A stretch of DNA of 64,000 nt from NCBI GenBank assembly GCA_039545295.1, contig BCIK01000016.1, positions 567,375 through 631,374 on the forward strand, read 5' to 3'. Shown here piece after piece: positions 40,989-64,000 of this stretch. The notes beneath the pieces are model-generated. The model was given only the letters and a program-made list of their open reading frames with translations. It searched no databases and was not told where the DNA came from. A program made the translations under genes and the position numbers. Source of the DNA: Udeniomyces pyricola. Lineage: Eukaryota > Basidiomycota > Tremellomycetes > Cystofilobasidiales > Mrakiaceae. How positions within the stretch are numbered: position 1 is the first letter of the stretch; each line of letters begins with the position of its first letter.

Positions 40989-42514
40989 ATGACCGCCTCC
41001 CGCATACATGAAGTTTGGGTCGACAACCTCGAGGCTGAACTCGTCGCCCTTAGACAAGCGATAGATGCTTTCCCGGTCGTCTCCATGTCAGTCCTACCCT
41101 TGCTTCACAACATCGTGCCGTTTGCATCAACGTTGACGTGTTTGTCGCTTGACTAACATGCTTCTCTCCCTTACGCGTACAGGGTGAGCACATGCGCATC
41201 TATCCAGGCGCGATTATCGTAATCGATCGTTTTAGCTGCTTATGCTCGCCTTTTGTCTCTGTCTCTCGATCCGACAATACCATCGGTTTCATCCCTAGGA
41301 CACTGAGTTCCCGGGCATCGTCGCACGTCCGATGGGTAACTTCAAGACGGGAGCGGATTACCACTACCAGACCATGCGCTGTAACGTTGACATCCTGCGG
41401 CTCATTCAACTTGGCATCACCCTTTCGGATGAAGACGGGATGATGCCGGACGCGTGCACCTGGCAATTCAACTTCAAGTTCAACATCAAGTAAGCTCTTG
41501 CTCTATCTTCTCTTTCCTCTGTCAGGTACCTCTGTCATGGACTGTTGGATATATATCGGTGGAAACAGACATACTACTAACTCCATGCCCGCTTACCCCC
41601 TTTCCTTTCTCAACTCTCAGCGAAGACATGTTCGCTCCGGAATCGATAGAGCTTCTGACCAAGTCTGGCATTGACTTCAAGCGACATGAGGAGCAAGGAA
41701 TCGACCTCGAATACTTTGGCGAGGTGCTTATAACATCTGGGCTGGTCTTGTTTGATGACGTGAAATGGGTGTCCTTCCATAGGTAAGCTCGGATGCGCCG
41801 AGAGCGTCCACCCTTCATCTCTCAAGAGGTGTCTCCTCTGACGCATATTGATTCATCGGACTGATTGTCATATCCTCTCCAATTCCTACACGTTTGATGG
41901 TAGTGGTTACGATTTTGGATACCTCGTCAAGATCCTCACCTGCTCACCCTTACCTCCAACAGAGGCCGAGTTCTTTGACCTCCTGGCACTCTGGTTCCCT
42001 AGTATCTACGATATCAAGCACATCATGCGGAGCTGCAAGTCTCTCAAGGGTGGCCTTCAGGATGTTGCTGATAGTCTTCAGGTACGTACACGTCACAACT
42101 CGTGTCGCTATTGGTTTTCGAGCAGCGTGCTTAATTCCCATGTGCTGCAAGATTATGAGCTGACAATGCTTGTTAATCTTCATCGTATCACGTTTCTCTC
42201 TCACCTCTGCAACTGGCACTGTTCCCGTTGACGGAACAGGTCGCTCGTATAGGGCCCCAGCATCAAGCTGGTAGTGATAGTCTGCTGACAGCAGCCACGT
42301 TCTTCAAGATGCGCAAAGTGTTCTTTGAAGACAAGATAGAGGATGAATTTTACAGGTACGTGCCTGTCGGAATATGCAAGAGGCATATGTTTCGTTGACT
42401 CGCATGTTGACAGCCATTCGTTGGTCTTTCAGAAATTTCCTTTACGGTTTTGGTAACACCCGGCAGATGTCGCTATCGGCAGCTGGAAGGGCTCAGATAG
42501 GTTCGCGGCCATAA
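40989..42514 (+). CDS. POP2: CCR4-NOT deadenylase subunit CAF1/POP2
   Basis: CAF1 is the DEDD-family 3' exonuclease of the CCR4-NOT complex that shortens mRNA poly(A) tails. The start [20 protein letters not shown] fits the family. The exonuclease signature follows: DTEFPG (first Asp and Glu) with [20 protein letters not shown], then [25 protein letters not shown] (third acidic), [15 protein letters not shown], and [20 protein letters not shown] (last Asp). All four catalytic acids are present. The gene ends at TAA 42512-42514. The junction before DTE is odd: an in-frame ATG-GAC can be rebuilt only with a single-base exon at 41183 between introns 41087-41182 and 41184-41298. The protein is about 270 residues, the usual length. 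Confidence 0.93.
41183..41183 (+). other. Proposed 1-nt exon of CAF1
   Basis: Exon 1 ends ..TCC AT before gtcagt. The DTE exon begins GACACTGAG after cctag. Directly joining these shifts the frame, but one G flanked by gtacag on the left and gtgagc on the right restores ATG GAC and the conserved S-M-D-T-E sequence. Confidence 0.6.
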
Positions 42515-43258
42515 TGATCTCGATTTCATGACCTCTTTTCACGCCTCTTGCACTGCCTCTGATCAAGAGTTACAGCTGTGTCTGTCATCTGTTGTCGTAA
42601 AGATCTCGTACCCAAAGACTGATAACACGCACGGCACGAACAAACATAATAACGTAATTGTCGAAAGATGTAGGACTGAGTGACGCTGCTTTTCATCAGC
42701 TAGTTGCAATCTGATGTCCTGTTCAGGTTCAACGTTCAACATGAGTCGTGTGCCCCTGGTACGTACATATGAAGAGAGCAGAACAGCGGCCGAACTCATA
42801 GGCTGATTCTCCAAGCTTGTATTCGAAGTCAAGACTGTTCTTCGCGTCAGTATGACGCTACACAATCAAGGCGTGAGTAGATTATACGAAACGCTTGACG
42901 TTGGGACTTGGCACGTGTGTCGTGGAGTCTGAGATCTGAAACGAGCATGACGATGGCGGGAGATGCCGAGCCGAATGCAGCAGAACAAGGCGAGAAGAAC
43001 AACGAACAACGAGTTAACAAGACCCAGTACCCAAGGCCCAAGATCCCAAGGGCCGACATGTGGCGCGTGGCGCATGGCAGGCAGAGCGGGTCATCGGTCA
43101 CAGATTCAAACAACGATTTATGAGAACGGACGGATCGAATGCAACGCACGTACACTGCGTGCGCGGTACGCGCCGAAGCTGACAAGGGAAATCCGCGACG
43201 ACGCGTCTTGGATGATCATGGTGGCGCGAGTGGCGCACAAACGCGCGAACGCGCATGC

Positions 43259-43363
43259 AAGCTGCTGCACAAGCTGCAAGCTGCTGCACAAGCTGCAAGC
43301 TGCTGCACAAGCTGCAAGCTGCTGCACAAGCTGCAAGCTGCTGCACAAGCTGCAAGCTGCAGC
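43259..43363. repeat. 19-bp tandem minisatellite
   Basis: Five perfect copies of AAGCTGCTGCACAAGCTGC run from 43259 to 43353, followed by a partial copy. The unit is rich in CTGC and GCAG words. As 19 is not a multiple of three, all frames are read in turn and give a 19-residue protein period. Confidence 0.97.
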
Positions 43364-43686
43364 AAAGCGCATGCCGATCATGTCCATTGCATTTATCATT
43401 GTCTGATCATGCATTCGCTTGTTAGTACGTTCAATACTCAAACCTCAGGCCTCAGGGCGCATATATCATATATCGTATGTCAGATATCATATGTATCGTG
43501 TTGACGTCCTCGACGCGTTCGTTCGTTGTGCATTTCAAGATCGAGCCGATTGCAGTTTAATTTACACAGATCGCCGGCCGTTGTGTGTTTCGGTGTGCAT
43601 GTGTCTCATTCGCTGAATGTTGTTCTTGTTCCCCTATCGGCTCGTTCGTTGTTTGACGTTGATTTCTAGTCCGGCCGACGGCGAGC

Positions 43687-43694
43687 TTTAAAAG
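43687..43694 (+). promoter_or_regulatory. TATA-like element upstream of pheromone gene 1
   Basis: TTTAAAAG lies about 150 bp upstream of the pheromone start codon and is followed by a CT/CAC-rich leader. It is the best TATA-like word in the region; no transcript start was available to test it. Confidence 0.35.
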
Positions 43695-43822
43695 ATAGCC
43701 GTCAGTTAGCTTGGACTTTCTTATCCCATCAACCTCTATCTACTACGATCGTCTGCATCATACCCTTTGCACTCCATCCATCCAACCTTCACTCATCTTC
43801 TTTCATCTTACCCACACTCCTT

Positions 43823-43917
43823 CACACTCTCACCTCTTCACAATGGACGCCTTCACCGCCATCTTCACCCCCTTCGTCGCCACCGCCGCCGAGTCGACCG
43901 AGGCCCCCGTCGCCGAG
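43823..43917 (+). repeat. Left arm of an inverted repeat shared by the two pheromone genes
   Basis: These 95 bases (20 of 5' leader and 25 codons) match 63906-64000 in reverse complement without a difference I can see. Identity may extend further beyond the window edge. Confidence 0.93.
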
Positions 43918-43971
43918 TCCAGGAGGAGCTTCCAGAGCAGCTGGTCNTCCTTCATCTGCACCATCGCTTGA
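43843..43971 (+). CDS. Lipopeptide mating pheromone precursor 1
   Basis: The 42-codon gene encodes a precursor with leader MDAFTAIFTPFVATAAESTE followed by APVAE, and a mature-peptide region of about 17 residues ending W-S-S-F-I-C-T-I-A. The final CTIA is a CaaX box, so the Cys should be farnesylated and methylated after the last three residues are cut off. Cryptococcus pheromone precursors share the MDAFTAIF start and a CaaX end, so the class is secure. Base 43947 is written n, but the codon tcn is Ser for any base. STE3 lies 1.1 kb downstream on the other strand. The mature N-terminus is not visible, and which mating type this peptide represents cannot be told. Confidence 0.95.
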   Translation: MDAFTAIFTPFVATAAESTEAPVAESRRSFQSSWXSFICTIA

Positions 43972-45105
43972 GGATCTTTTAGTGTAGGTTTTTCTTGGGC
44001 TCCCGCTCGCGTCTGACGTGTGTCCTCGGTCTCGAGCCGTCAATACCTCGAGCTGACTGCTGCGTACCATCTCATTTCATTTGTTCTCCCGATTTCTGAC
44101 AATCCAATTCGCTTTTACCTCGTTCAACGTTAAACCACAATCAAACATCACCTAGCTCTCAGTTTCCTTGAGCCTTCTTGGCTGGCCTAGAGGGTTTCAG
44201 GATCAGATGGATTCTTCTATATGATGTATGGTTATATCTTAGCGCTTGTGATACTTTGGAAATACTACTGAAGTCCATCAACTATCAGGCGACTGAACTT
44301 ATATCGTTTCCACCCTGTCACCCTGTCACCACGTCATATGTTCCTCGAGTCTGTCCGGTCGGTCTGCTCCACCCGATCAGACTCACTCGTACTATATGTA
44401 CCACTTGTGTTATATCATGTGTGTATGACATCATCGTGATGAGTAGATTACATGGATCATTTCTCCAGCAGCGTCGCGGCGTCACTCAACCGATGCTGGA
44501 TCATTATGCTGGGTCATCCGCTCGGTTCCGCAGGCCGGCCCTCATCTGACCGGACGCGTTCGCCAAGTGTGTATCGTACATATTTATGTCGATCCTCTCG
44601 CTGACTCGCTCTTGTCTTGCTCCCAGTACCACTTTCTGCCACTCCGATTTTGGTCAGCTTTGGCCTGTCAGAACTGTATTCCTACAGCCAAGGTCGGTTC
44701 CGCTTTCCTTGTCTGTAATCAAACCTGTTGGATCATCAGCTGTACTCGTCGGGATGTCATCTCGATCACTTGAACTCATCATGACACCGATGTATATTTT
44801 CTTCCATCACATACGTATAGTCTGGATCGTTCCCTTGAGCCCCATTCCCTCAACACCGAGGGCTAGAAAGATAGCTGATCACTGATCAAAAGACTCTGAT
44901 CCCGGCCGCGTACAGCGCTACAGAGTGTCCAGACTGCTAGAATCGATGCTGAACGATAGTGTGTCAGTGTCAATGTCTAAATGACTATCAAGCACATTTG
45001 ATTTTTGGATGCAAGGAACGATGCATGGCTTTCTGGGCCGTCAAAGACATGGTATGGCAGCAACAATCATGAGGTATACGGGTCATCTGGAAACAACCCT
45101 ACAGA
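43972..45105. other. Intergenic region between pheromone gene 1 and STE3
   Basis: The 3' sides of pheromone gene 1 and STE3 face each other here. Open frames are short, start in poor context and lack family likeness. AGCGCT hexamers lie at 44241 and 44914. I found no further pheromone-like start (ATGGACGC) on either strand. Confidence 0.5.
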
Positions 45106-46548
45106 TTATGTATATCTTTCTCCTGACACCACTTCGCGCTCGATCTTGACCGCTATCTGAGACCTTGATCGTCCTACCTCCTGTTCTGCATCACCTTTTT
45201 CGTCCGGCGAAAAACTTTGCTTCTCATACCCGACATCTTTAGTGCTCCATCCGAGCTCTGATGGAGAGGCGACACTAGTCCCGAGCCTAGGTATGTAGGA
45301 CTCGACTGGCGTAGCTGGCAGCCGACTGGGATAACAAACAGCAAGTCAATAGACACGCGGCAGAACAAAGTCAGCATTTCAGCGAATGTGACCGATTGAT
45401 CGACTCCAACCTGAAACATGAAGATATCGGACTTACGACGTATGTAGGACACAAGAAACCGAATCCATCGACTTTCTTGCACTCTGCAGCAGAGTCGACC
45501 ATACTGAGGCATACCCGCTCATCGCTTCTTCTTGCATTCCGAAGAACGTGAAGTAGAGGAAGGCGGTGAAGACAGGCAGCCATCGAGCAAAATTAGTCAG
45601 GGCGACGGCTTGAGGCGTGAGGCTATGAGTAGCTAGAGAAGCGAAGAAGATCCTCGAGTACTGATAATGCACATCGGCCCATGACTGTGAAGGTTCCTTC
45701 AATTTGGCGTTCTGTACGACGACCCAGGCGGAAAAGGGAACGGAGAAGAGCATTTCCACAGAAGAGAGGGCGATGAGTCGAAGAAAGCGACCGGTGTTGA
45801 GCCCAGAGTTGCCGTTTTGCATGACAGTTTGGAAATGACGACGACGGGAGATGAAATTGTAAAGGGCCCGACCTAAAGAGCATCACAAACGTATCAAAAT
45901 GCAATCTCAGTAAAGACGCAGGAAGAGCTGTGAAGCTGCCATTATTACTGACCTCCGAAGATAAACGATATCACGCCCAGTAAAAGGGGAGGGACGTAAA
46001 GCCCGAGAATTGTCCATGTTTCGGTGTATGTGGCTATTCCACAGCCATAGGCTTCAATGATGACGTATCTGGAGGCCTGAACGCAATAGGCGACAACCAT
46101 AACGATGACGGGTGGAACGGTAACGATGGCGACGTCGGCCCACAATGCGAGTCTCCGATCTCTAGGGGTCACGGCCGCCCTCTTGACTGATGAAATGATG
46201 GCAAGACGGCGGTTGATACACAGAGTTGAGGCAGCAAGACCAGTGTGAAGACCTGACTGAATTTTGATATCTGAAGATAAGGCTTCGTATCAGTGAATGC
46301 TGCACTTGAAAGAATCAAGAACAATGGCCATTAGACGTGCGCGCACCGATATCGCACCACACAGGAATTGAATTCGCGAGGCTGTCCCACCAGACAATTG
46401 AGTTGACCAGAAATCCTAAGGTTTTAATGAACGACCAGGAAACGAGAGCAATGGCCCCAATGTTACCGGCCCGCCAGTGGGGAGGAGAAGAAGCCGCAAG
46501 AAGGATGAGGGCAAGGGCGGCGTAAACGATGTATATGAGGTCGTGCAT
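45106..46548 (-). CDS. STE3: STE3-type pheromone receptor
   Basis: STE3 is the seven-helix G-protein-coupled receptor for a-factor-like lipopeptide pheromones. The start MHDLIYIVYAALALILLAAS begins helix 1; PPHWRAGNIGAIALVSWSFI and NSIVWWDSLANSIPVWCDI match the conserved first loop and second helix. Next come AASTLCINRRLAII, TPRDRRLALWADVAIVTVPP, YGCGIATYTETWTILGLYVP (extracellular cysteine), and the intracellular RALYNFISRRRHFQTVM. LVEMLFSVPF-type and FFASLATHSL segments close the helices. The last exon, joined by a phase-2 intron, gives a charged tail ending QIAVKIEREVVSGERYT at TAA 45106-45108. An alternative upstream ATG at 46599 would add 17 residues; I chose the shorter start, which begins like known Ste3 proteins. 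Confidence 0.95.
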
Positions 46549-47777
46549 TGGAATTCGGATCGATGCGAGAGTGTCGTGAATGATGTTAAAGAAGGCCAAA
46601 GAAGGTGGGATGCTGAGTTAAGGACAGACGTGTTTCAATTCTGAAGGCAGCGAATAAGGCTCGACCTTGAGAAAGAATGAGGGAGAGGATGCCGGCTACT
46701 GAAGAAGAACAAGGCCAGGAGGACAAGGAACGAACGGACAAAAGGGCAGTCTGCGTCAGTCTGCGCTGGTCTGCGCAACCAAACCCTTCCGGCCGCGGGC
46801 GCCGCCCTAACGCCCCCATTATCGTCAAGTGTCAAGCTGTCAACAAGTAGTACGTGACGCGACCTTGTCTGACGCGACCATGGGCCGTGAGTGCATCATG
46901 AGTCTTAATTACCAGTCGACCAGTCGACCAGCGTGCCAGTCCGCCAGGGCCCTGGACGTTGGACCCAGGGGCCTCAGCGCTCAAGCGCTCGTGATTGACA
47001 TACGATTGACATGTGTCAGATCGCTCAGACTGGCTTGGATCGCAAATCTGATCTGATCCTCAGAGCGCGCGTCAGCATGTCAGCACCCCATGAGCTGCAA
47101 GCCGGCGGCTACTACTACAAACCCAATATATATCCTCCCAAGTAGTACAAGGTACACATGTACTCACGATCGGTACTTGAGCTTTGAGCGCTTGAGCCAC
47201 CACCACGATGTAATTGCCAGCAGTGTGTTCAGACAGTTACAGCAGTACGCATAATATTCGATCGATCGCGCGACGACCGAAACCACGTCGTATTCGACAC
47301 CGATCGCGATTTGCATCGACTTACAGGTCATGATTGAATCCATGATGTACGTACTTATCTCAGCCCTCCAGCGCTCCAGCCTCGATCCATGCTAGGACTA
47401 TTATACGTCTTGCTTCGTCGTCATCACCGTATATATAGTCTCTCACCATGATATATATATATATTTGCTTGATATCGCGTCGTGACGATCGTGCATTGCA
47501 AGGTGCATAACATACATGATTAATCTGTCTGGACGTCGTACGCACGAGCGCATGCGCGAAACTTGGCGAAACCAAGTGCAATTCGAAGATGCACAAAAAT
47601 CGAAAAACCCCTGGAAATTCTTTTAGTTCAGCTAGAATCCAGAAATGGCCTGATCTTAAACTTCACTCTGCGCCAAAAAGATCCACACCGTGACGTTCTT
47701 TGTGATGTGGGTTCTTGATCGATGGGAGACCATCTCAATTCGCATTGATTATCATGTATGATTAGCCACATAACGGA
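46549..47777. other. Intergenic region upstream of STE3
   Basis: This stretch holds the STE3 promoter and the 3' flank of the small charged-protein gene. AGCGCT hexamers lie at 46976, 46984 and 47187, and a short TA repeat near 47447-47464. No gene is supported. Confidence 0.5.
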
Positions 47778-48862
47778 TCAGAGAGCACTCAGAAAATCAT
47801 CGACATCCTCTTCCCGGTCTGTTATGGATGTGCCAGTCTTTGCATGGCCAGGGATCGGCTTCGGTCGGTGAAAAGATAGGTCGATTCCAAGCATCCGAGC
47901 CTTTAAATCTGACGTCAGAAAGCAGTTCGATAACAAGTAAATCGTCAATTTGTTTCTTGTGGTAATGATATATACGGATCATTCCAATGCGGAATACGTG
48001 AAAGTAACATTATATTTAAAGTCAACTCACCTGCCAAAGCATCCGCCGATTTCCTATCCTCTAGCATCTTGGACATTGCGGCGCGGTCTTGCACACTCAG
48101 CAAGTGCGTCTTCGTAGCACGTCCAGGCGCGCGGGAGGCCAAATGTGCCAATGACGTGTCGACATCGGCATCCTCGACCTCAATGTTTTGTAGCGATTCT
48201 GCCGAGAACTTGTGCCGCTGCGTTTGTAAAAATCGAGCAACCTCTGCTTCGTGTTTGGCAGCCATTTGCTGCTCTGAATAATCATGGAGAAGTGAGGAGG
48301 AAGATGTCAGATGACTATCAAGAGATTATTGATGTGCCACGATGATGAAGCAAGCTGATGATCACCTGCTTCGGCTTCTTCTTCATCTGGTTCTGGCTCC
48401 ACATATCGGTGTGCGTTGTTGGTCAGATTGCGGCTGGGATAGCTAAGTACAGCTGTCAGCGACCCCATGAAGAAGTTTCGAATCGTGAGCAAAAACGACC
48501 CTATCAGAATAAGGCATGCTGATTTGACGGCAGAGTGAGGACATACCTTCGTTGACATCCATATCATTCGCGCCCTCGTCGTCCTTGTTCGCTCCTTCCT
48601 CTGATTCTTCAACCTCCTCTTCGACCGTAGATGCGTCAGAACCCTTGACGAGGTCGGAGGTCAACGTGGTTTTATCCACATTGCTCCGGGCTCTGGTATC
48701 AAGCGAGACCCTGGCCTATCAGCAACGGGGTGGACCTCACCCACTTTGAACCCGGTATGAACCGTGACGCAAGGGCGTGTTGAGTAACAACTAACGATGA
48801 GCAATAACTAACGATTTCCACTTGTTGCTTGCTCGCTTCTTGTGTTTATTTTGAAGAACCAT
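47778..48862 (-). CDS. Small charged protein of unknown function
   Basis: Four short introns join into one clean protein of about 220 residues. It starts MVLQNKHKKRASNKWKS (basic), then VSLDTRARSNVDKTTL, an acidic stretch with VEEEVEESEEGANKDDEG, then AVLSYPSRNLTNNAHRYVEP, more acidic residues, and a helical part: EQQMAAKHEAEVARFLQTQR, ALADLKARMLGIDLSFHRPK, closing DREEDVDDFLSAL. One acceptor (gacag near 48433) had to be chosen over a stronger tag a few bases downstream because the latter gives a stop. I recognise no domain. The basic start and coiled helices would fit a nuclear or ribosome-assembly factor, but that is only a guess. It sits between STE3 and STE20. Confidence 0.7.
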
Positions 48863-49648
48863 TTGACGTCGGCTAAAAGCGGTAGTATGAATTGGGAGTT
48901 ATGAGAAATGAGGAGACGGTTGGTCGATCAAGGGTACGGTCTATTGTTGGCTGCTGTGACATGTGAAACGGGTCGTGCGAATCGCGGATGGGGCAGATAC
49001 GACTAGTTACGTACGCAAGCGGTAGTATATAATACGTCGTACGCGCGTAGTATATATATATACGGTCAACTCCTCTAAACTCATAACTTCGATCGACACC
49101 CAAACCTATGGGTATAAAGGGAGTATGGTACTACACAGAGATTTGAGGGGGAAACCCATAATTGCTCATAAGGGCGTTTCAAGAGCGATCTAGGCGCTCA
49201 GACAGACCAAGGAGTGTATATCATGGCATACGGGAGCTTTTGCATGACATCATACAGAAACAATTATGCAACCGATACAGTCAACGTTGACTGTAAGCTG
49301 TAGTACATGAGGACATCGCCGGCCTCGCCCCGGGCTCGGGAGCCGCGCGCCCGCCGACTCCGGCTGCCCTGGAATGTCGACCCGCCTGAATTGATTACTT
49401 GTATACATACTTCAATGTGATCTCTTGCTATTTCTTGTCGTCAGCTTCTGTGCACTTCTTGTTTCCTGGAAAGCAAAGCTGACAGTGCAGTCACGAGACG
49501 TGCTCCCCTGAGTCGCCCAGCTCTCGTTAGGTACGGTTTGTAATCTTCTACGGATCAAATCCCAACATCGGGCTGATCAGTCAAGCACACAAAAGTCATG
49601 CTATACAAAAACACCATCGCCTTGCGCCGAGAATCTGTAGACAAAACA
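48863..49648. other. Intergenic region 5' of the small charged gene and 3' of STE20
   Basis: No gene. TA-rich stretches (for example 49050-49062) alternate with a sharply GC-rich block at 49315-49376. The latter holds no open frame worth reporting and no tRNA-like fold that I can see. Confidence 0.5.
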
Positions 49649-52467
49649 TCAATCCCGCTTGAATCGGAGAAGAGGAGCCAGATGCGATACATCACAAGCC
49701 TTGCCCAGGAAGTCATGCTGCAGTGAGCGATGAGAAGTCTGATGTTAACACAGTCTCACAAAGATATTGCATGGCAAACCGAGCGCGAAGTTCGAGCATT
49801 GTAATGAAATTGAAAACGAAAGGCGGCTCACCTCCAACAGCTCGGTTGCGGTCGCTCGCGATTTGACGTCAACACATAAGCAAACTGAAAGGAAACTTTT
49901 GAGTTCTCCACTGAGCGCTTCCGGCTTCTTAAGAGTTGGCGTGCCATTAGTTGCGATAAGGTAGAGAGCCTTGAGCGGTTCCTCGTCGAGATACGGCGGT
50001 TCGTTCTCGATCATCTCGATAGCCATGATCCCGAGCGACCAGATATCAACCTTAGCGCCATACTCCTTTTGTTTGACAACTTCCGGTGCCATCCAGTAGG
50101 GCGTGCCGACCATAGTCGCCCGCTTAGATTTCTCGGATGAGAGCTTCGCACAAAACCCAAAGTCGGCTATAAGAGGCAAATCGCCGGCGTGAATTCACAA
50201 GTCACTACATGAACAAGACATATGGGACATGACCATGATAAGAACAGACTAACTGATCTTGACTTCGCCAGCGATGTTGAGTAAGACGTTGTCGCTCTTG
50301 ATATCGCGGTGGATGATGCTACGCTGATGGAGGTGCTGAAGACCCTTGCACGTCTGGTGATGAAGCCAGATAAGAGCGGGAGATGTTACGTAAATTCAAC
50401 CAGTCAATTCTGATCCTGGCATTCAATATCGATGGGATTGAATGAAGAAGACACACCTCAAAACAAATCCCTGCGATCTGATCTTCTTCGAGTTTGTTGT
50501 TCTCGATGACATCGGTCAAAGCTCCGCCCTCCATAAACTCCATCACAACCCAAAGTTCGGTGTTCTTGATGAGAAAAGCCTCAATAAAGTTTACGACGTT
50601 GGGGTGGTGTGACTCTTTCATGACCACGATTTCGTTGACGATCAGTTCCTTGCGGGGTTGCTGTGCCAAATCCATTTGTTTGATGGCAACTTTGGAACCG
50701 TTATCAAGCGACTTGGCAACGAATACCATTCCGGAAGCTCTGAAGGATGACGATAAGGACGAGAAGATCATTCAGCGATTACGATCAATCTCAACGACGA
50801 AATCCCAGGCAAAGAAGGACATCGACTCACCCTTGCCCAACTTTCTTGATTTTCGCATACAGCACACCAGGATCGTCTTTACTGACGACTTGCCGGAGTC
50901 GATCCATAATTTGAGCCTCGCTCATTGTGCTGATGCGTCTTTCGGATTGCTTGGCGATGGCAGCTTGCTCAGTGGCAACGTTGGGAGTTGAAGGAAGAGC
51001 GATTCTAGGAGGAGTCGCAGTCGAAACGGGATGGAAAGACGGTTGGGAGGGCGCATGAGACGGAGTTTGACCTGAAAGAGAAGGGGTCTCGCTGCCATTT
51101 GGTTTCTAGTTCGAGAAGAAAAAGGGAGACAGTCATTGTCAGTTATGTGACTCGCCTGGGAATACATGAGAGAAAGGCTGAGTTTGATGTACCGGAGCTT
51201 GATGAGGTTGAGGCTGACGACTTTGTTTCGGTGGTGGTGGAGCGGGTCGCGCGGCCACAGGATAGATTTGAGAAGTGTTCGGGCCATTCGGGATTGACCG
51301 ATTCTGCCGAGAAGCTACCGATGGAGCTGATGGACGAGGGACCGGCGGTGTATTCGACGAGGTAGCTCCAAGACCAGTTCCACCGAAGCGGGCCGGAGGG
51401 GGTGTAGGAGTGGACGCCGAAGAAGGGTTATGTCGAGCAGATGAGCTGGACGGACCAGGGGCATTGGTGGGACCAAGTCCAAGGCCGAAGTCGTCGTATT
51501 CGCCGCCTCGTTTTTGGATGTCGGTATAGAACTCAAGCACGTCAAGAACTGCCTGAGGGTTCTTTGCGTAGTCTTCTTTGGTGATGGCTGAGGACGTGAG
51601 AAGTCGGGTCCATTGTTCGGGCAGACCCTGATTTTGCCATATGGACGATCAGCCTTGAACCACTAGATAGTCCAATTCCGACAGCGGAAGCAGGTACTGA
51701 CAGTGAATGCACCGCTCACGGGATCGAAGCCGACGTGGACCTGATGGACAAAGTTGGTCGGGCCACTGACCCCGAGCGGGGAGCGTTCGTCTACCGGCCA
51801 CACACGTATGGAGATGAGCCGGTGCCAGATTTCAAAGGTCCAAGGGTAGTGAAGCGCTTACAAATGATGTCCAGCCAGCTGTACAGCTCTTCGTCACTCT
51901 TGAGGGAGATGAAATGCGTCTTGTCCTTGGTCACGATCTCGATGCAGTACGGCTTCAGATCCGTACGCTGCACGTTACTGATATCTCGGAGTTGAACAGA
52001 AGCGGACGCGTGAGGGGAAGTCTGGATCGGAGAGGGATGTCAAGACTCAGCTCCAGAATGACATGTATGCAGACTGATCGGATATTCTCTAGGACGCGGC
52101 CTGCTGGGAGGAGGAAAGAGGGATATAGCGAGATGGAGAACGCCGACATCACATTCGTCCTCAAACTATCGCAAGCCCCATTGGATTACTTGGGACGTAC
52201 CTCAGACTTTCTGAACGACAGATACTGATCTTCTAGCATCATCCACCGCTTACTCCACATGAGAAAGTTGTCTTTCACGCTCACGTAGCCAGCACGGAAC
52301 GAGAAAGGGCCCGAGCTTTGGCCGATGATGGATGAGGTGGGCGAGCTCGAGTTGGAGGAGAATGACTGATTTGCCGAACGAAGGGATAGTGATGCCATCG
52401 ACGCTGACGGGGGAGCTGGAGCTGCCCGCGAAGGGGTCAGCGATGTTGATTTATAGGACGACGCCAT
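49649..52467 (-). CDS. STE20: PAK-family protein kinase
   Basis: Ste20/PAK kinases act downstream of the pheromone receptor and Cdc42. Three domains are readable in order. A PH domain begins near residue 50 ([20 protein letters not shown], then [17 protein letters not shown]). A CRIB motif [20 protein letters not shown] follows near 51740, with [19 protein letters not shown]. After a proline-rich linker the kinase domain begins with GQGASGMVF, then VAIKQMDL (ATP lysine), [37 protein letters not shown] and [12 protein letters not shown]. The last exon reads [20 protein letters not shown] and ends at TGA 49649-49651, the standard Ste20 end. I start at MASSYKSTS (52467); an in-frame ATG at 52494 is possible. 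The PH-CRIB-kinase order is the fungal type found in Cryptococcus mating-type loci. Confidence 0.95.
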
Positions 52468-53690
52468 GTGGTACGAATGGTAGAGACGGCTCAAGGGAAG
52501 GGGGGGGGGGAGAGGAGAGTGTGATGATAGGAGGGGGAAAGGCTACAGACACAGGTCTGCTGGTCGTCATGATTCGTTGTGCTTGCACCTAGTTAGTTCA
52601 TCTAGGCTCACTAGCAGTGCGACCGTGTCGAATGTTCATGATGGACGCACGATAGGTGGAAACAGACAGTTCGCGTCGACAGTACTTTGAGTTTCGAGGC
52701 CTGCAAGGCGATGAGTGCGGCTTGTGCAAGCGTATATCCGGATAAGAACAGATAGGCGAGATGGGGATACGGGGATGTCGGTAAAGTGGTCTCGCGTGAA
52801 ATCGTAGTGGAAGCCTGTGGTGGCCAGGAGCAAGACGGGTGATGAGGGATCTGACGAGGTCAAGGGTTGGTGGATGTCGCGGGAAACAAGGGGGACGGGA
52901 CAAAGAGATCGCCAAACAGAGCCAAACAACGCCCTCCGCGATCCGGCTTCATATATGCACGCTTATGATGCAAGACAACTCACATTCATGCTTCATATGA
53001 TGGCAGCCTGATTAATTCGCTCTGCATCTAGGGGTCAGTCTCATGATCGAGAATGCCTGGATCAGCGCGAAGAGATTGCAAGCCCAAGGCGAGCGATCAC
53101 AACCGACCTAGCATTGAGCGCTGAGCATCGGTCATATATGAGCCTCACCCTGAGCGCCCCGAGCAATCAAGTTGAATGGTCAAGAAGCGGCGAGCCTGAG
53201 GCGAGCTGTCACAGCCCTGCAGTCTTAAGCATGGACCACAGCCCAAGTAACGATCAACACTGCATTATAGTGGCGCTTTCTTCACATTTTCCCATATATC
53301 CGCAGTCTAACATAAGAACGCTTGCACAACGCAAGTGTCTCTTCCTACTGCGAAAACATTTTTTTCTCGTAATACGCTACCATCGGCAGACGCTTGCGGG
53401 AGCCCGGTACGTCCAACGCCGCTCTCGAGTGCACGCATGATTAGGATATAACGTGAGAATTACGTCCATCGTTCAACGTCTATCGACCATCGTCCAACGT
53501 CCAACGCTCATGATTGCCATATCGTCATCGAACATAAATCATCGATCATGACTGTCATATTGCCAGCCCATCGACAAGCCGACTTCTCCAGGCAAATCAA
53601 GTTCCAAATGAATGTCTAATACTGCCAAATCAATTACACTCTGCACAGAGACTGATCTGTTCTAAATCACTCCTCTCGCATTATGGCTCA
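52468..53690. other. Intergenic region between PMS1 and STE20
   Basis: No gene is supported. An 11-nt G run (52500-52510) lies in the likely STE20 5' leader and reads as C on the sense strand. An AGCGCT hexamer lies at 53117. Short direct repeats related to CGTCCAACG and ATCATCGATC cluster at 53460-53550. Open frames here are proline/arginine-rich and look random. Confidence 0.5.
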
Positions 53691-56600
53691 TCAGATTGAT
53701 TTCCAATCAAGCGGAGGCCCGTCTCTCGAGCGAGACAAACTTGGACTTATGCTAGTCAAATGTCGCATCGTTGGGCGTCCATGAGGACAGTTCTGTACAA
53801 AGACATGAGGAAGATCAGTGATGATACAGCAGAATGCATGAAGTTCCAAGTGTAAAGCTTACCCATGGTTGTTCGATATTGGAGAGATTACACAAGACCT
53901 GTATATCGAGCGGCATGGAGAACAAGATGAGCTGTCGGCCGCGACCATAACGGAAAAGGACAAGGTGCATACACGGACCTTCTTCATCTGACCCTGTGTC
54001 AACGACTTGCCTATCATGATGCTTTTGCGGCAAGCACGCATGGCAAACATGCTTCGGGCCTTAGTACATCGGATCATCTGACCAGACGGGCGGTCCTGCA
54101 TCATGTGTAAGAGTTCTTCAAGATCTGCGAATCAAAGTACTTGTTCTGATATCAGACACTCGAAAGAGAGAACTTCCACACGAGTAAGCATCAGTACTCA
54201 CCTCGAAAATCAAATACCGTCTCTTTACTTATGGGTTGAGCCGCAAGATAGACTTTCTCGGCGTGTTCAGTGCCCGCACCACCGTTTGGGTCGCCGATCA
54301 CGAGCTCAAACCCATTCTTGCGAAGCATGTCGAGGTTTTCCGAAACCAAAACGGTACTGGCGGCACCCAGATCAAGAGGACGAGGTCTGGTCCAGTCGAA
54401 GAAAGCAGGGTTGTATTAGAGAGAGTACAGGCACATTGCCTCCATGTAGCTAGAAATAGACTAACCGGATGAGCTTTTGAGATTGAATGACTGTGTTCTG
54501 CTGAAGGTCTTCGAAATTGATCTTTTCGTCCGAGGCATGCTGATCGACGATAAAGAGGTCGTCACCTGACTCCGACTTCTTACGTGCTATGATGAACCCA
54601 AGATTGAACTGGCCAACGACGTTCATAGATAGGAAGTCTGACTTTTTGATAGTCATCTCCAACATCGCCTCAGCACCAGGTGCATCGAAGTTCAGCCCAG
54701 ATGAAGGCACTTCGGCGTCTGATACTGGACAAGCGATGCGGAGGGTGTCGGCTTTTGCTGCGTATCGAGAAAGAAGCTCAGCTTGATTGAGGGAGAGGGC
54801 CGATACGAATGAAGGAGAACGGCTTGAAATCTCAGCGAAAGGCCCAGCTGCGCGTGAGGATGGCGTTCGCTGAAGTGGAGAGTTTGCTGGTCGAATTGAA
54901 GACAAGAGTGAAGGGATAGGCAACTGATAATCATCCTCATCGTAGTGCATGCCGACATGATGATCCTCAGATGACTCAATCTTGATAGCGCTCTCACGAT
55001 TGAAGGGTGTGTCGAATAAGGACATAGTTGGGCGCCGCGATGCGCAATTGTCCTCGTTTGACCCCGAAGTGGACGAAAATGCGTTGGAAAACAGCCGGAT
55101 CGGAGGTTTTTCCGTAGTCATTGGTGATTGCTGTAGGCACACGTCTGATTTTGCTACAAGGTGAGGTGGTGTTTTGACGAGGGGCTGAACAGGGGAACCC
55201 GACGTCGTTGAATCCGATGTATCACGTCGCCGCTCATGAAGGCTGGATATTGTCGAATTTGCGTTCATAGATGGATGGGAGTGGGAGACTATGGCATAGG
55301 CAGCTGAATCCTTGGGAGATAACAGATTCTGGATTGCGTTCTAGATATGAAGTAAACTACGATCCATGAACATGCGCACTAACAAACGCATGGATCGCTC
55401 GATGTATGCGAAGTTATTGTATACTCACCGGTATAGCGTCAACAAGGTACGCCTCTTGGTGAAGAAGGACAGTCCTTTTGTCTGGGGTGAGATTCACATC
55501 ATACGAATCTAAGAAAGCAAACAAAGCGTTTTAAGTTGCGATTGAGTCAGAATGAAGAATAGCCTAGCATATACTACAACGCACTAGTTGGAAGCTTGAT
55601 GTCCAGTACGATAATTGGGTATTGAAGGGAATTGAGTGTGCGATACACATCGTTGATTGCCTTTTGTATCTAAATCCAGGAAGTTCCGAAGATGAACGGA
55701 GTCAGTGAGTAGCGAAGGCCACACTCGTTTCGGTGTTTGGAATCACCTTGGGCAAGAAACATGGCCGTCCGTTCAGATAGAAGAATTGTCGGTCGTTGCT
55801 CAATCTACCAGTAGATGCGGCAGAGATCAATCCCTCGAGAACGATGGGTCTGATGAATACATGATACATATCAGCTGAATGGGGAAGCATGAATCTAGCG
55901 GCGGCACAGTGCTCACGGTTTTGCTTCTGTCATATCGTGGTCTTCGTGGGAATCGTCGTAGCGATCAATAGTGGTAGTAATTGCTCTGAGTGACTCCGTC
56001 GTTTTTGGCTGCCAAAGAGCAGAAACTGCCGATAAGAGGGAAGGAGTGCCAGATGTCTGAATATGAACGATCCGCTTTCTATAAGAAAGAGGAAGATTAC
56101 CGGTCAGCCATAAACGTTAACGCAATGTCATCGCATGGGCTGGAGGTTTGTATTACCCATTCACGAGTCCGATGACCGATAATCGTACACCGCGGGCAGA
56201 ACTGGCAGGTACTAGAGCATACGCGCTGAGAAGGGTCAGGGCTTTGGCGTACTCTCGCTTAATGTGCTTTCGAAGTTCCTGGTGTCGAACAGGAAGAGGT
56301 GCAAAGAGGCCTTTGACTCTGATTGTAGTACCTCTCTGGATCGTACAGATGGAAAGTTCGATCAGATAGTCAGGACCGTTGACAAACCCAGCAATCCTGA
56401 GAGTACAAGCAAAGGCAAAGAGGACTGACTTGACGGGCCGTCTTGCTCGCCGAGTCTACAAGTGTGCCCAATCGGTCAAGCTTGAGAACAGTCCCAACCG
56501 GTGCTTCCGAAGACGTTGCTGTGACGATTTCGACGGATGTGCTCAGCGCGCATAGTGATGACAAAGCTTCACCCCTAAACCCAAACGATGTCACTGCGTC

Positions 56601-57090
56601 GAGATCATTGAATGAGCTGAGCTTTGATGTGTGGTGCTTGAGACCTGTATATATTAATTAAGGCTTGTGAGCCACGCATGTATTGTCAGCCATATTTGAA
56701 GAGATAATAGCGATTATCCGGATGATTATCTGTGGACCGGACGCACCGATTCCTGCGTAATCCGAAGACGCGATCCCTGACGCGTCGTCGATCACTTCTA
56801 TGGATTCCAAGCCATGGTCCTTAAGTCTGACCTCTGTACAAGAGCGAACATGTATGGTCTGGCTTAGAGGTACGGCTTTATCTGCTCGGAGTAATCGGCT
56901 AGGGTAACAAATTGGAGGGCGAAACAGGCTAATGGTGCGTGAGTCGCGTACCAATATTTCTTGCTCCAGCGTCAAGCGAGTTTTCGACGAGTTCTTTGAT
57001 CGCGGTCTGAAGGTCGACCACTACTTGACCAGAGGTGATGCGATGAACAGATGTGTTGTCGATGGGCCGGATCGCGTTGGTAGTCGTCAT
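53691..57090 (-). CDS. PMS1: MutL-family mismatch repair protein PMS1
   Basis: PMS1 pairs with MLH1 and nicks DNA during mismatch repair. The start [20 protein letters not shown] is followed by the GHKL ATPase motifs [17 protein letters not shown] and [16 protein letters not shown]. The C-terminal half carries the endonuclease domain: [35 protein letters not shown], and [21 protein letters not shown] short exon [11 protein letters not shown] joins to [12 protein letters not shown], the typical PMS1 end; a short tail then stops at TGA 53691-53693. The metal-binding DQHA(X)2E(X)4E motif is present as [12 protein letters not shown], so nicking activity should be intact. The linker between ATPase and endonuclease halves is long and Ser-rich. 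GAPDH is divergently transcribed. Confidence 0.95.
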
Positions 57091-58175
57091 GTGGGAGGTG
57101 TGGTTGTTAGGAGGTAAATCGGGAATCGAGTTTGCTGTAGATCATCAACGCATTACACATCTTCGACGCGTTTCGTTCCTTCTGTTTGGTAGAATATGGT
57201 TATACATAGTAACATGCAGGACTCAGCGCATGACAATCATGATCTCAACCCCTATCACAAATACCACATCGCAGATATGTTGTTCATAGAATTAGCCCGG
57301 CGTGTGGTCGATGAATGGCTAGGAATTATGACTTATATGGCTTGTAAATGTTGACGTGACGCGACGTAATGGTACGTGGCTATGCGCGTCATCAAGGAGA
57401 AAGTGACCACAGACTGCTCGATACTACTAGGTCTGATATATAAAGCTAGCTAGCAGTGAAAGTGTAGGCTCGAAACATCGAAAGAGCGTGATAGCTGTAT
57501 CCAATCCAGAAGAGAGTCGTTAGATGAGAGATCATCGATCAACGTTTGGTACTCGACGCATGGAAGCTCCTGCCGTCTTCGAAAGTGGTGACATCACTCG
57601 CGTGTACGTATATATGAATGCGACGATGACCACAGGTTTGGGAGTCTACATCCTGAATACGTTCAGATGTGTGTTCATGAGATATCAGATCATCGGACAG
57701 GACATTCTGAATGTGGGGTATATACGCTCGGTAACAATGTGATTGATTGCGTGCGCACGCAGGGCCGAAACGTCGGAAGCTGGTACCGGTATAGTCAAGG
57801 CTGACTGGTATGGCTGAATAGCCGGGCGCTACTCATGAGGCAAAGAGAGAGGATAGAGGGACGAGGCGACCGATTCGGTCGGAAGAGAGCGATATAAGGA
57901 AATGAATGGGGCAGAATGTGGATGAACACGTTGGGGAGGGGGAGCTCATGGAAGGAGAGAAGATGGGGAGGGGACAACCCCAGTCGGGGAAGCTGGCGGG
58001 GACGAAAGTCGAGATTGGTGGGAGCGATCTCGCAACTGCAAGAGAGGGCAAGCTTAGTGATGAACTAAAAGTCGCTCGAGCTTTTCCTCTTCTTCGACCC
58101 CCATCTCTCTCTTTCTCTCTCCCTCCACCCCCTCCCCTCACAAACCACCCCTTCACACCCCTTTCTTCTATCATC
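57091..58175. other. Divergent promoter region of PMS1 and GAPDH
   Basis: No gene is supported. The part near GAPDH ends in a long CT tract. An ATCATCGATC word lies at 57531. A small frame at 57524 (MRDHRSTFG) has no CaaX end and no family likeness. Confidence 0.5.
58079..58175 (+). promoter_or_regulatory. Pyrimidine-rich tract of the GAPDH core promoter/leader
   Basis: About 95 bases just upstream of the GAPDH ATG are almost all C and T. Such CT tracts next to the transcript start are common in strongly expressed fungal glycolytic genes; the assignment rests on that and on position. Confidence 0.5.
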
Positions 58176-60351
<2,176 letters not shown>

Positions 60352-61080
60352 TGTCAATGTTTCCCTTGTTCTACGTTACTTCCGATCGCATGACCTTCGT
60401 GTTTCATTTCTCTGATACTTTCGCCATTGTAAAGAAGCATATCGTGTTCGCTGCTTGCCAAGCAAATCCTCTTGTGTCCATCGGTAATCGTTTCACGAAC
60501 CTGAATGCTTGCCAACATCTACAAGCTTGAACAAAAACCGAGCAGATGTCGGCTCCCAGCCCTTCAGGTTGCTAACCATCAATCAGATACATAATCGTTG
60601 ACGTATTTCTATCATATGCTAGCCAAGCCTACCAGCATGCAGACCTAGTACATATATGGCCGTCAAAGTCTGACCCGATCTTCAGAACTGCGTTCGTAAT
60701 CAGTCACTCGATGTCGTCGTTTCTCAGATCTTAGTAAGCACCCACAGTTACAAGTCACAAGTGTCATGATTGCGATTGATCCAGAGAAGGCTCGATCAAA
60801 AGATCCTGGAGCTAGCTGTTCAATCTATTGCGAAATGCATCTTGTACCGCATAGTACTTATGTATTACTAGAAATGTTGACTGCGACGTAACTACACTTG
60901 ATGTCGACGACCGCACCTGCGGGCTGATTGCGCTGTGATCAAACGTCAAATAGCGCTCATCACAAGCTCACGTCCCCGCTAACCTCACCCGGACTACCAT
61001 CTCCCACCGGTGTCATTCTTATCCATCACTCCCTTCAGTAGCTCACGTCTAGCTCACACCCTTCAGGCCCAAATTACACC
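60352..61080. other. Intergenic region between GAPDH and the double-Myb gene
   Basis: No gene. It holds the GAPDH 3' region and the promoter of the Myb-type gene. An AGCGCT hexamer lies at 60952, about 130 bp before the proposed start. Confidence 0.5.
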
Positions 61081-63572
61081 ATGCTTCGTCAGACCTCCGA
61101 CTCATCAAAGCATCCGCCGACATACCCTCTACACAGTCGCCCCCTTCGCAGAACGTCTCTCCCAACTCCATCGGCCTTTCCCGTTGAGACCCCTCACCCA
61201 TCTGCTATCGCACCGGCTCCAATTCCCTCAACCTCAGCTGCACATCTTCTTCGTCCTGATGCGAATTTCACATGTCACTCGCGACTGGGCTCACTCTCAC
61301 GCTCTCGTACCTTCACCAGCTCGCTTACTGGCGCAAGGTCCAGTTCCGAGTCTCCAAATCCTGACAGCGTTCCCTCACCGTCGCCGAGATTGCACCAGCG
61401 CGCCAAGTCAAGTAGCCACATTCAAGGTCATCATATCACCGGTAGTTGTAGCGTAAAAGCTGTCTCAAGCCTTAACGAAGGGCCGCCGTCGAAGAAAGCG
61501 AGGAAAAGATGGACCGAGCAGGAGACTCAACAGCTTGTCGATGGTTGTAACAAGGTCGGTCATGCCATCTTCTTGCCTCCCTTTTACTCTTATCGTACTG
61601 ACTTTCTTGATTGATTTGTTGGGCGGAACAAGTGGGGAGTAGGAAACTGGAAGACAATGCTGAACGATCCCGAACTGACGTTCGACGATCGGTCTGCGGT
61701 TGACCTCAAAGATCGGTGGGTACGGGCCACATGCCGAGCGCTGATCATACAACGAATGTCCAAACTGATATTTCTTGTGAACCCCTTGTCCACGGAACTA
61801 TATCGCTGTCAAGATTTCGAACACATTTTCCTCAAGCTTACCATCAGGTAATCTTGCTAACAGTTGCCTTAAGCATGAGTCTTGCCCAGTGCGATGAACT
61901 GAACCCCTGTTCTGCTTTAGCTCTACCCTAGTGCAAAAACCCACAACGCCTCGGCCTCGAAGTTGAAAGACTCTCGCGCAGAGGAAACTGGCCTTCGCGT
62001 CGAGAAAAAGGAGGGGAAGAAGAAGCGCACCTTCTCGGCGGCTGAGGATTTGGCTCTCAAGACTGGTTTTGATCTGGTGAGCCACACTATCCTTTGCCTC
62101 AACTGCAATGACGCAAACAGTAGAAGTTCACGGATATCTGAAAAACTTACTATAAGGTCTTGCTTTCTGGGCTAGCATGGTGCGGCATGGGCCAAGATCG
62201 TCAAGGATCCTATATTTCAATCGAGGAAGAGCATCGATCTCCGGGACAGATTCCGTAACGTCAGTTCCTATGCGTTTTGAGGTCCCGTTTATGATTGTGT
62301 TACTGACTTTTTGATGGTTAAATCTCACACTATAAGGCTTTTCCGGATCTATATGCTCAAGCAGGTTACAAACCTCGCATGACCAGATCGAAAACTTCGC
62401 CAGCTTTCGAGCACTCGTCATCTATTGACCCAAGCGAGGCTGGTCCAAGCGACACATCACCTCGACGACGCAGACGCTCTCTCAGCATCAGCATATCCAA
62501 TCACGATACCTCGATCGAGCTTGGTCCTGCAACTCCAACAGTCCAAGGCAGAAGAGCATCGCTTTCGAGCGCGGTCGCCCTTGCCTGTTATCCATCGCAT
62601 AGTGTTGTACCAGAGTCACTATCCCCTACTCAATCAACACGATGCCTCCAGTCCCTCACCAAATATTCGAGCTCCCTTTATCAATCGTCCTCTTCTCACT
62701 CCCCTACCAGTCCACCAGGCCATCAGCAAATTGTGCCGCCAACATGTTATCCCTTCGCTCAATGGTCTGCCTTCGATCTCGTCTTCGATCAAACCCACAC
62801 ACTTGCTCCCGCTCAGTCTAGCTGGCTTCCTTCTCACTATGGTTACAATAACACAACTATCACTCAACAGCCCAATCATGTAATCCCTTGGCCCTCTGCA
62901 TCAGACTCCGGCGCGCCGGACCTGTATTGCCCGTCTGAGGCCGCCCCTTCAACTCCCACTGTTCTTGCTTCCAACTTCAGTTTTACCCATCATCCAACAG
63001 CAGGCGATCTTATATACTCCACAGCTCGTCGATCGTCTCATTACGAATTCGATCGTCTTACGCTTCCGGCTATGAGCGCAGACGCTTTGAATTCTTCAAG
63101 CACAGCCGACACTTCAACTTCCTCTTTACTCAGCGATCTCCACTCAGACGCAGAAGAATCTTGCTCGTCCTTTCTCTTCGCCACATCGCAGCTGGAAATC
63201 AGCGCGGCACACCGGTCTAATCTCTCGCTGCCGGTCCCTGAAAGCTTTTCATTCTTGTCATGCGATCCATCGTTGCCGGTCCACACGTCACAGTCGTGCG
63301 TACCTTCGGCTCGCACCACCGATGACTACACCATACAACGTCAACCATCCGTGCGCTACGCAGACGCTGGTCAGGGCGAATTTTACCTTGCGCATAACTC
63401 CGGACGTTTTCCTTCCAGCCCTCCCGCAACTACTTCTCAGGATGACATAGGCTTGGACAGTGGGTCTGGAGCAGCAAGGAAGAGGAAACGGGTGGCGAGT
63501 AAATTGGCATTCGAAGACGGACTGCATTGGCTGGACCTTTCTATGCTAGGAGGAGAGGGCGATAGTTGTTGA
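61081..63572 (+). CDS. Double-Myb telobox DNA-binding protein (Tay1/Teb1-like)
   Basis: Two Myb repeats of the telobox type are readable. Repeat 1 is KRWTEQETQQLVDGCNK joined to WGVGNWKTMLNDPEL and DRSAVDLKDRFRTHFPQAY. Repeat 2 is KKRTFSAAEDLALKTGFDL joined to HGAAWAKIVKDPIF and RKSIDLRDRFRNAFPDLYAQ. The VDLKDR/IDLRDRFRN words are the telobox signature that contacts TTAGGG repeats. Two tandem teloboxes resemble the fungal Teb1/Tay1 proteins, which bind telomeric repeats and some promoters. A Ser/Pro-rich N-terminus of about 135 residues precedes them and a long Ser/Thr-rich tail follows, ending LHWLDLSMLGGEGDSC at TGA 63570-63572. The start at 61081 is the first good ATG of the long frame and is not proven. 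Confidence 0.82.
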
Positions 63573-63857
63573 TCTTTCGCGCTGAGATGACGAAACTTTG
63601 CTGCGGTCAAGTGTCTATGTACGGGTTGACTCATGTTTCTACTGCAAGAACAAACGGCACGACGAAGAAATGAAGATCACATATATCATCAACGAATGTC
63701 ATCAGAGATCGGTCCGGCCGATTGATGAATGATGAGAGACCTGGGAACAAGGAAATTGATGCGGCAGGAAGAAAAAAACATGATCAGAGAATGATAAGCA
63801 CAGGACAAAGCGGTACGGTGATAAGACTTGGATGGTACGTACTACTAGGATAGCTGA
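63573..63857. other. Short intergenic stretch next to pheromone gene 2
   Basis: The 3' ends of the Myb gene and of pheromone gene 2 face each other. I see no gene. Confidence 0.5.
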
Positions 63858-63980
63858 TCAGGCGATGGTGCAGTTGAAAGGCATGACGTTTCGGTTCCAT
63901 CCCTTCTCGGCGACGGGGGCCTCGGTCGACTCGGCGGCGGTGGCGACGAAGGGGGTGAAGATGGCGGTGAAGGCGTCCAT
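63858..63980 (-). CDS. Lipopeptide mating pheromone precursor 2
   Basis: A 40-codon gene on the minus strand whose leader of 25 residues is identical to that of precursor 1 (MDAFTAIFTPFVATAAESTE then APVAE). The remainder is different: KGWNRNVMPFN followed by the CaaX box CTIA. The Cys should be farnesylated as in precursor 1. DNA identity with gene 1 covers all 75 bases of the leader codons and the 20 bases of 5' leader visible before the window ends (63906-64000). Base usage and processing pattern agree, so this is a true second pheromone gene and not an assembly echo, because the mature segments differ completely. Confidence 0.94.
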   Translation of the reverse strand: MDAFTAIFTPFVATAAESTEAPVAEKGWNRNVMPFNCTIA

Positions 63981-64000
63981 TGTGAAGAGGTGAGAGTGTG
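63906..64000 (-). repeat. Right arm of the inverted repeat, running into the window edge
   Basis: Reverse complement of 43823-43917. The window ends inside the match, so its true outer limit is unknown. Confidence 0.93.

Follow-up and report, generated by a model that had tools for sequence, protein, structure and literature searches.

The DNA analysed here is a window of 64,000 bases from the yeast Udeniomyces pyricola, positions 567375-631374 of contig BCIK01000016.1 (C16), and ends at the last base of that contig. The genome searched was the 25.0-Mb assembly of 38 contigs. The window carries a putative pheromone/receptor (P/R) locus with two pheromone precursor genes, P1 and P2, and the pheromone receptor gene STE3. 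P1 lies at 43843-43971 on the + strand and encodes 42 amino acids (aa); P2 lies at 63858-63980 on the − strand and encodes 40 aa. The two genes are inverted relative to each other at a distance of 20 kb, and their contig also carries STE3 (45433-46548, − strand), which is convergent with P1 and 1.5 kb away from it. STE3 is thus linked to a pheromone gene, as in a P/R locus, and P2 is on the same contig too. The assignment of P1 is based on its open reading frame (ORF), the identity of its leader to those of P2 and a third copy, P3, the presence of the same peptide in P3, and one relative in the protein database (P0001). That of P2 is based on its ORF and the pattern of identity.

The ORF translations read MDAFTAIFTPFVATAAESTEAPVAE-SRRSFQSSW(S)SFI-CTIA for P1 and MDAFTAIFTPFVATAAESTEAPVAE-KGWNRNVMPFN-CTIA for P2, both terminated by TGA. 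The bracketed serine covers the sole N of the window, at 43947 (+ strand), which is the third base of a TCN codon and therefore gives serine with any base. Through CTIA followed by a stop, P1, P2 and P3 all have the short, CAAX-ended form of basidiomycete lipopeptide (MFA) precursors. Eight CAAX-type short ORFs were present in the whole window, and the leader was found in two of them, P1 and P2. A leader starting MDAFTAIFT is known from Cryptococcus.

The 25-residue leaders of P1 and P2 are identical at 75 of 75 coding bases, and together with the 5' untranslated region (UTR) the identity extends to 95 of 95 bases. These form an exact inverted repeat, one arm at 43823-43917 (+ strand) with 20 bases of 5' UTR and the entire P1 leader, the other at 63906-64000 (− strand) with the P2 leader and 20 bases of 5' UTR. 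The second arm ends at the last base of C16 (window position 64000), 20 bases upstream of the P2 ATG, and the 95 shared bases are therefore a lower bound. At the other end of the genes, the tails (CTIA plus stop) are the same at 14 of 15 bases, a match expected by chance at about 4e-8 at one site and 2.6e-6 over 60 offsets, given equal base frequencies. For the middles of 39 and 33 bases, 131 of 2000 shuffles reached the alignment score, which is therefore not significant at 5%. The predicted mature peptides are 11-mers, SFQSSWSSFIC for P1 if cut after RR and GWNRNVMPFNC for P2 if cut after EK, with 2 of 11 residues in common. On inspection, the charged residue pair at the predicted N-terminal processing site is RR in P1 and P3, and EK in P2. 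An earlier note, made from the letters of the window, had reported a common leader and CTIA end around unrelated peptides, with a sharp boundary at the junction of leader and mature part; both ORFs, the full leader identity and the lack of significant similarity in the middles bear this out.

When P1 was used as a query against the whole genome, three places were found, namely P1, P2 and P3, the last on contig C27 (14005-14133, − strand). The 42 residues encoded by P3 are those of P1, which leaves P2 as the odd member, and the leader is identical at 75 of 75 bases across all three copies. The tail of P3 differs from that of P1 at 2 of 15 bases, both silent; P3 has A at the position of the P1 N, ends in TAA and has a 3' flank unrelated to that of P1. 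A genome-wide search for the leader pattern with up to three mismatches returned 11 places, three exact (P1, P2 and P3) and eight with three mismatches. These eight look like chance matches, the reversed-pattern control having given two. The CTIA-stop pattern with TAR stops was found at four places genome-wide, compared with two in the control. P3 was among them, and P1 and P2 were absent because their stop is TGA. The three other places were rejected as pheromone genes, their open frames of 56, 34 and 14 residues having no leader. The P2 mature peptide occurs at one place only in the genome at up to three mismatches.

The protein database held one relative of the precursors, P0001, returned as the single candidate of one search and as the same protein in a second search with two candidates. 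Its predicted mature peptide, GMGSAWSVLNC, is an 11-mer like those of P1 and P2 if cut after the basic residue. It has 4 of 11 residues in common with P1 and 3 of 11 with P2, counts too low for P2 to be placed in a class.

The intact frame of P2, the basic residue after the leader and the near-identical CTIA tail speak for P2 as a working gene. Codon choice agrees weakly with this. The G+C content at third codon positions (GC3) was 12 of 13 codons in the mature part of P1, with the N codon scored as non-GC, and 8 of 11 in that of P2; pooled, this gives 20 of 24 (binomial P 0.004) against 0.51-0.56 in the exons of the neighbouring genes PMS1, STE3 and STE20.

STE3 was modelled as a protein of 319 aa with Pfam domain PF02076 in three exons (46548-46347, 46270-45953 and 45872-45433). 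The splice model was made by eye on candidate GT-AG sites, and its C-terminal tail may be incomplete. In a homologue search of 7175 candidates, 12 proteins matched at E <= 0.001. Of those with a species name, the one from Mrakia frigida (Cystofilobasidiales) was the best, at 51% over 88% of the query, and the STE3 of Tremella mesenterica matched at 38% over 99%; five STE3 fragments matched at 65-70% over 34-41%. In a tree of nine rows (eight of the 12 homologues, four of them partial, plus the window protein) with long branches, the window STE3 grouped with four fragments (support 99/98), and that group with Mrakia (99/96). The receptor is probably Cystofilobasidiales-like, not Cryptococcus-like.

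The genome search for PF02076 gave six exon matches, all belonging to a single sequence that stands at two places, and no other STE3; two different STE3 genes, the mark of primary homothallism of the Phaffia type, are thus absent from the assembly. The STE12 domain was found at one place, on C27, and a single homeodomain gene of family PF05920 on contig C11, divergent from a neighbouring second homeodomain gene (PF00046, a family not searched genome-wide). This HD1/HD2-like pair is on a contig other than those of the P/R genes. With one STE3 sequence, one STE12 and one PF05920 gene, the assembly looks haploid. A mixture of mating types or a diploid assembly was considered and rejected, since STE3 (as one sequence, at two places), STE12 and PF05920 were each found once, PF00046 standing outside the genome-wide search. 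The whole looks like one haploid genome, either tetrapolar in layout or homothallic and derived from such a genome.

The second place of STE3 is part of a segment that stands twice in the assembly. Bases 43948-47532 of the window and 25781-29365 of C27 are identical over 3585 bases, which cover the P1 tail, its 3' flank, STE3 and the region upstream of STE3; the C27 copy begins at the base following the P1 N. The sequence of P3 breaks off before a run of 11,627 N, at the base that matches the end of C16, which lies 95 bases upstream of the divergence of P2 from P1 and P3, and past this gap C27 resumes with the 3585 bases that follow the N of P1. The identical stretches seen at the copies comprise 3585 bases with the P1 tail and STE3, and 95 bases with P2 and P3, the shared upstream part breaking off at contig ends. 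Beyond the 3585-base repeat, nine bases match after two mismatches, which is not above shuffles (score 18; mean 18.2, maximum 25). The P1 upstream DNA (41500-43822) has no other copy in the genome. We read the end of C16 and the break of P3 as a break in the assembly graph, within a longer shared stretch. The 3585-base segment may be either a true identical duplication or a double placement by the assembly.

Other DNA matches were scarce: one for 49300-57300 (150 bases at 78%, on C17), none for 57300-63800, and one for C27:30001-38000 (80 bases at 79%). The piece of C27 that carries P3 also has domains of a copia-type retrotransposon (RVT_2, rve and gag, at C27:508-8889), and the first 400 bases of C27 match sequence close to the right end of contig C3 at 97% identity. 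One other contig end, examined for the 95-base assembler signature, sits in a copia repeat. The first 20 bases of C16, CCCCCAACCCCCAACCCCCC, have a telomere-like look; TTAGG-type repeats were not found in the contig ends searched. A tandem repeat with a 19-base period is present at 43256-43371 of the window, about 470 bases upstream of the P1 ATG.

Further genes lie between STE3 and P2. A STE20/PAK-type kinase gene (49745-52467, − strand) has several exons, with Pkinase (PF00069) in two of them; its name and first exon were assigned by eye, and its exon 52186-52467 had no Pfam match. The 150-base match on C17 is the only exception to its being single copy as DNA. It is followed by a MutL/PMS1-type mismatch repair gene (54450-57090, − strand), also in several exons, with MutL_C (PF08676); the match of its N-terminal HATPase stretch was weak and below the cut-off. 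A dispersed repeat at 49051-49274, between STE3 and STE20, has eight more matches of 75-88% on seven contigs (C2 twice, C4, C14, C15, C20, C22 and C23).

The reading we favour, with a probability of about 0.5, is that this is the P/R locus of a haploid-looking tremellomycete yeast in which a small family of CAAX pheromones surrounds one STE3 type, the leaders being homogenised and P2 having a second mature peptide. Most leader codons have silent alternatives. The leader is identical at silent sites, the tails have silent changes and the 3' flanks are unrelated, a pattern suggesting that the 5' part was copied recently or undergoes gene conversion. In Cryptococcus, pheromone amplicons are identical within an allele and maintained by intra-allelic conversion (PMC526376), and inversions at pheromone copies have been described (PMC12510652). 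The three pheromone copies here would exchange sequence by gene conversion or be recent copies of one another, which would leave the 5' UTR, the leader and probably also the promoter identical. As the mature part of P2 differs, exchange must stop at the leader in P2, and P2 would keep its own mature part because exchange halts at the boundary. Both precursors would be expressed and, after cleavage behind the basic residue that follows the leader and farnesylation at the C of CTIA, secreted, and one mating type would send two signals. P2 would then be an outgoing signal to a partner's receptor, either a second receptor allele or the same one loosely read. Our lean towards an outgoing signal comes from the retention of P1 in two copies or more, which would be expected if the strain still courts partners.

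Several points weigh against this reading. The promoter of P2 is outside the assembly, 20 bases of its 5' UTR being present. The case for conversion is built on three sequences from one strain. In the Tremellales described in PMC4374795 the P/R locus is biallelic, and there would then be no third receptor as a target of P2. Taken alone, the GC3 excess of P2 is non-significant (binomial P 0.19). The pheromone response element (PRE) of the Ustilago type did not rise above background at P1 or STE3, with two matches each upstream of them at up to two mismatches, compared with a background of 2.65 per 800 bases and 212 matches in the window; upstream of STE20 there was one match with one mismatch. 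As to the earlier note, its proposal of two signals from one haplotype holds to the extent that one genome with one STE3 sequence encodes two clearly different pheromones. Its picture of two copies was incomplete, the two peptides standing but a third copy encoding that of P1. It had also offered a module swap or selection on the mature part only. The sharp junction is borne out, and the identity at silent sites favours copying or conversion of the 5' part over selection alone.

The note had further feared that the second copy was an assembly join. An assembler might have joined the P2 mature part to the P1 leader, or the part might come from a contaminating strain, and the contig structure gives some grounds for this: C16 ends inside the shared stretch and the P3 piece at the matching base, STE3 and the rest of the 3585 bases were assembled twice, P1 has an N, and 95 shared end bases are what a graph of 96-mers would leave. 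However, one would not expect a join in the leader to yield an in-frame peptide of 11 codons and, behind it, a complete tail of its own that is P1-like at 14 of 15 bases. The near absence of other DNA matches over 49300-63800 and the single STE3 sequence, STE12 and PF05920 gene argue in the same direction. The observation is real in its core and not an artefact, and an origin of P2 by misassembly or contamination is very improbable. Alternatively, P2 could be a relic of another P/R allele, its leader kept identical by conversion and the gene no longer used. Its mature peptide is single copy, and it lies 17 kb from STE3, beyond STE20, with a promoter that is not in the assembly. Ustilago maydis reportedly bears such a pheromone remnant, as the title of Urban et al. 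1996 indicates. Without constraint a short ORF should decay, though, and the frame, the charged cleavage-site residues and the CTIA tail of P2 are intact, which makes a relic rather unlikely.

A possible but less likely explanation than the favoured one is autocrine self-compatibility, in which P2 would be a pheromone of the opposite type under the local leader and would activate the resident STE3, giving a homothallic strain with one receptor and one captured peptide. One STE3 sequence occurs together with two unrelated mature peptides in a haploid-looking genome, and there are supporting cases: homothallism in Cryptococcus depauperatus through a Ste3a/MFalpha pair of opposite types (PMC9296135), reciprocal pheromone/receptor pairs in Phaffia (PMC4915694), and homothallism in about one-third of the described Cystofilobasidiales species (PMC8545103). 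Against it, P1 is present in at least two copies, compared with the single pheromone of C. depauperatus. A further reading, also less likely than the favoured one, is mature-peptide capture: a foreign core, of opposite or third type, was placed or kept between the family-shared leader and the CTIA tail, so that a single-receptor haplotype would emit two signals. If this were true and P2 fitted its own STE3, self-compatibility would arise by a change in one small gene, without gain of a receptor.

Among the closest known systems are the P/R loci of Cystofilobasidium ferigula and C. capitatum, with one STE3 per strain, two MFA genes, and HD1/HD2 and STE3 on different scaffolds (PMC8545103). C. 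ferigula PYCC 5628 seemingly has two mature pheromones that differ slightly from each other, their genes lying on very small contigs of unknown place (PMC8545103), whereas here 2 of 11 residues are common and P1, P2 and STE3 are on one contig. Phaffia rhodozyma, of the same order as Mrakia (Cystofilobasidiales), likewise has two different mature pheromones per genome, MFA1 and MFA2 (PMC5103461, PMC4915694). Its two STE3 genes each lie beside their own pheromone gene and its precursors are about 58% identical, in contrast to the one STE3 sequence and the DNA-identical leaders of the window. The MFalpha and MFa amplicons of Cryptococcus also comprise several copies, often divergent or inverted; those copies are set within repeats (PMC526376, PMC12510652). 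The copies of one mating type are identical in Cryptococcus (PMC9296135) and all encode one peptide, a pattern from which the window departs in that one copy, P2, differs, and in the mature part only. Kwoniella and Filobasidium floriforme have a single pheromone gene in each mating type or strain (PMC12510652, PMC9210288). C. depauperatus, with MFalpha and STE3a, resembles the window in possible self-signalling by an opposite-type ligand and receptor in one haploid genome (PMC9296135). Its one pheromone gene is unlinked to STE3 and its HD genes are lost, unlike the linked pheromone and STE3 genes and the two homeodomain genes found here.

A search of open-licence papers, with figures and supplements, the usual place of pheromone alignments, outside its scope, turned up no description of unrelated mature peptides behind DNA-identical leaders next to a single STE3. 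The grass smuts (Ustilaginaceae) belong to a different subphylum. Each locus of their triallelic P/R system holds one receptor and no more than two pheromone genes (PMC3248468), which is similar to the arrangement here; the system differs in its three receptor alleles, no third STE3 type having been met for Tremellomycetes in the literature compared, nor any treatment of leader identity in the smuts. Two pheromones in a one-receptor haplotype have precedents, including the weaker one in C. ferigula. The case touches on the origin of new specificities at P/R loci and of self-fertility in single strains, and as the variable part is about 11 codons in an otherwise identical stretch, in one genome with one receptor sequence, the question reduces to two peptides and one receptor.

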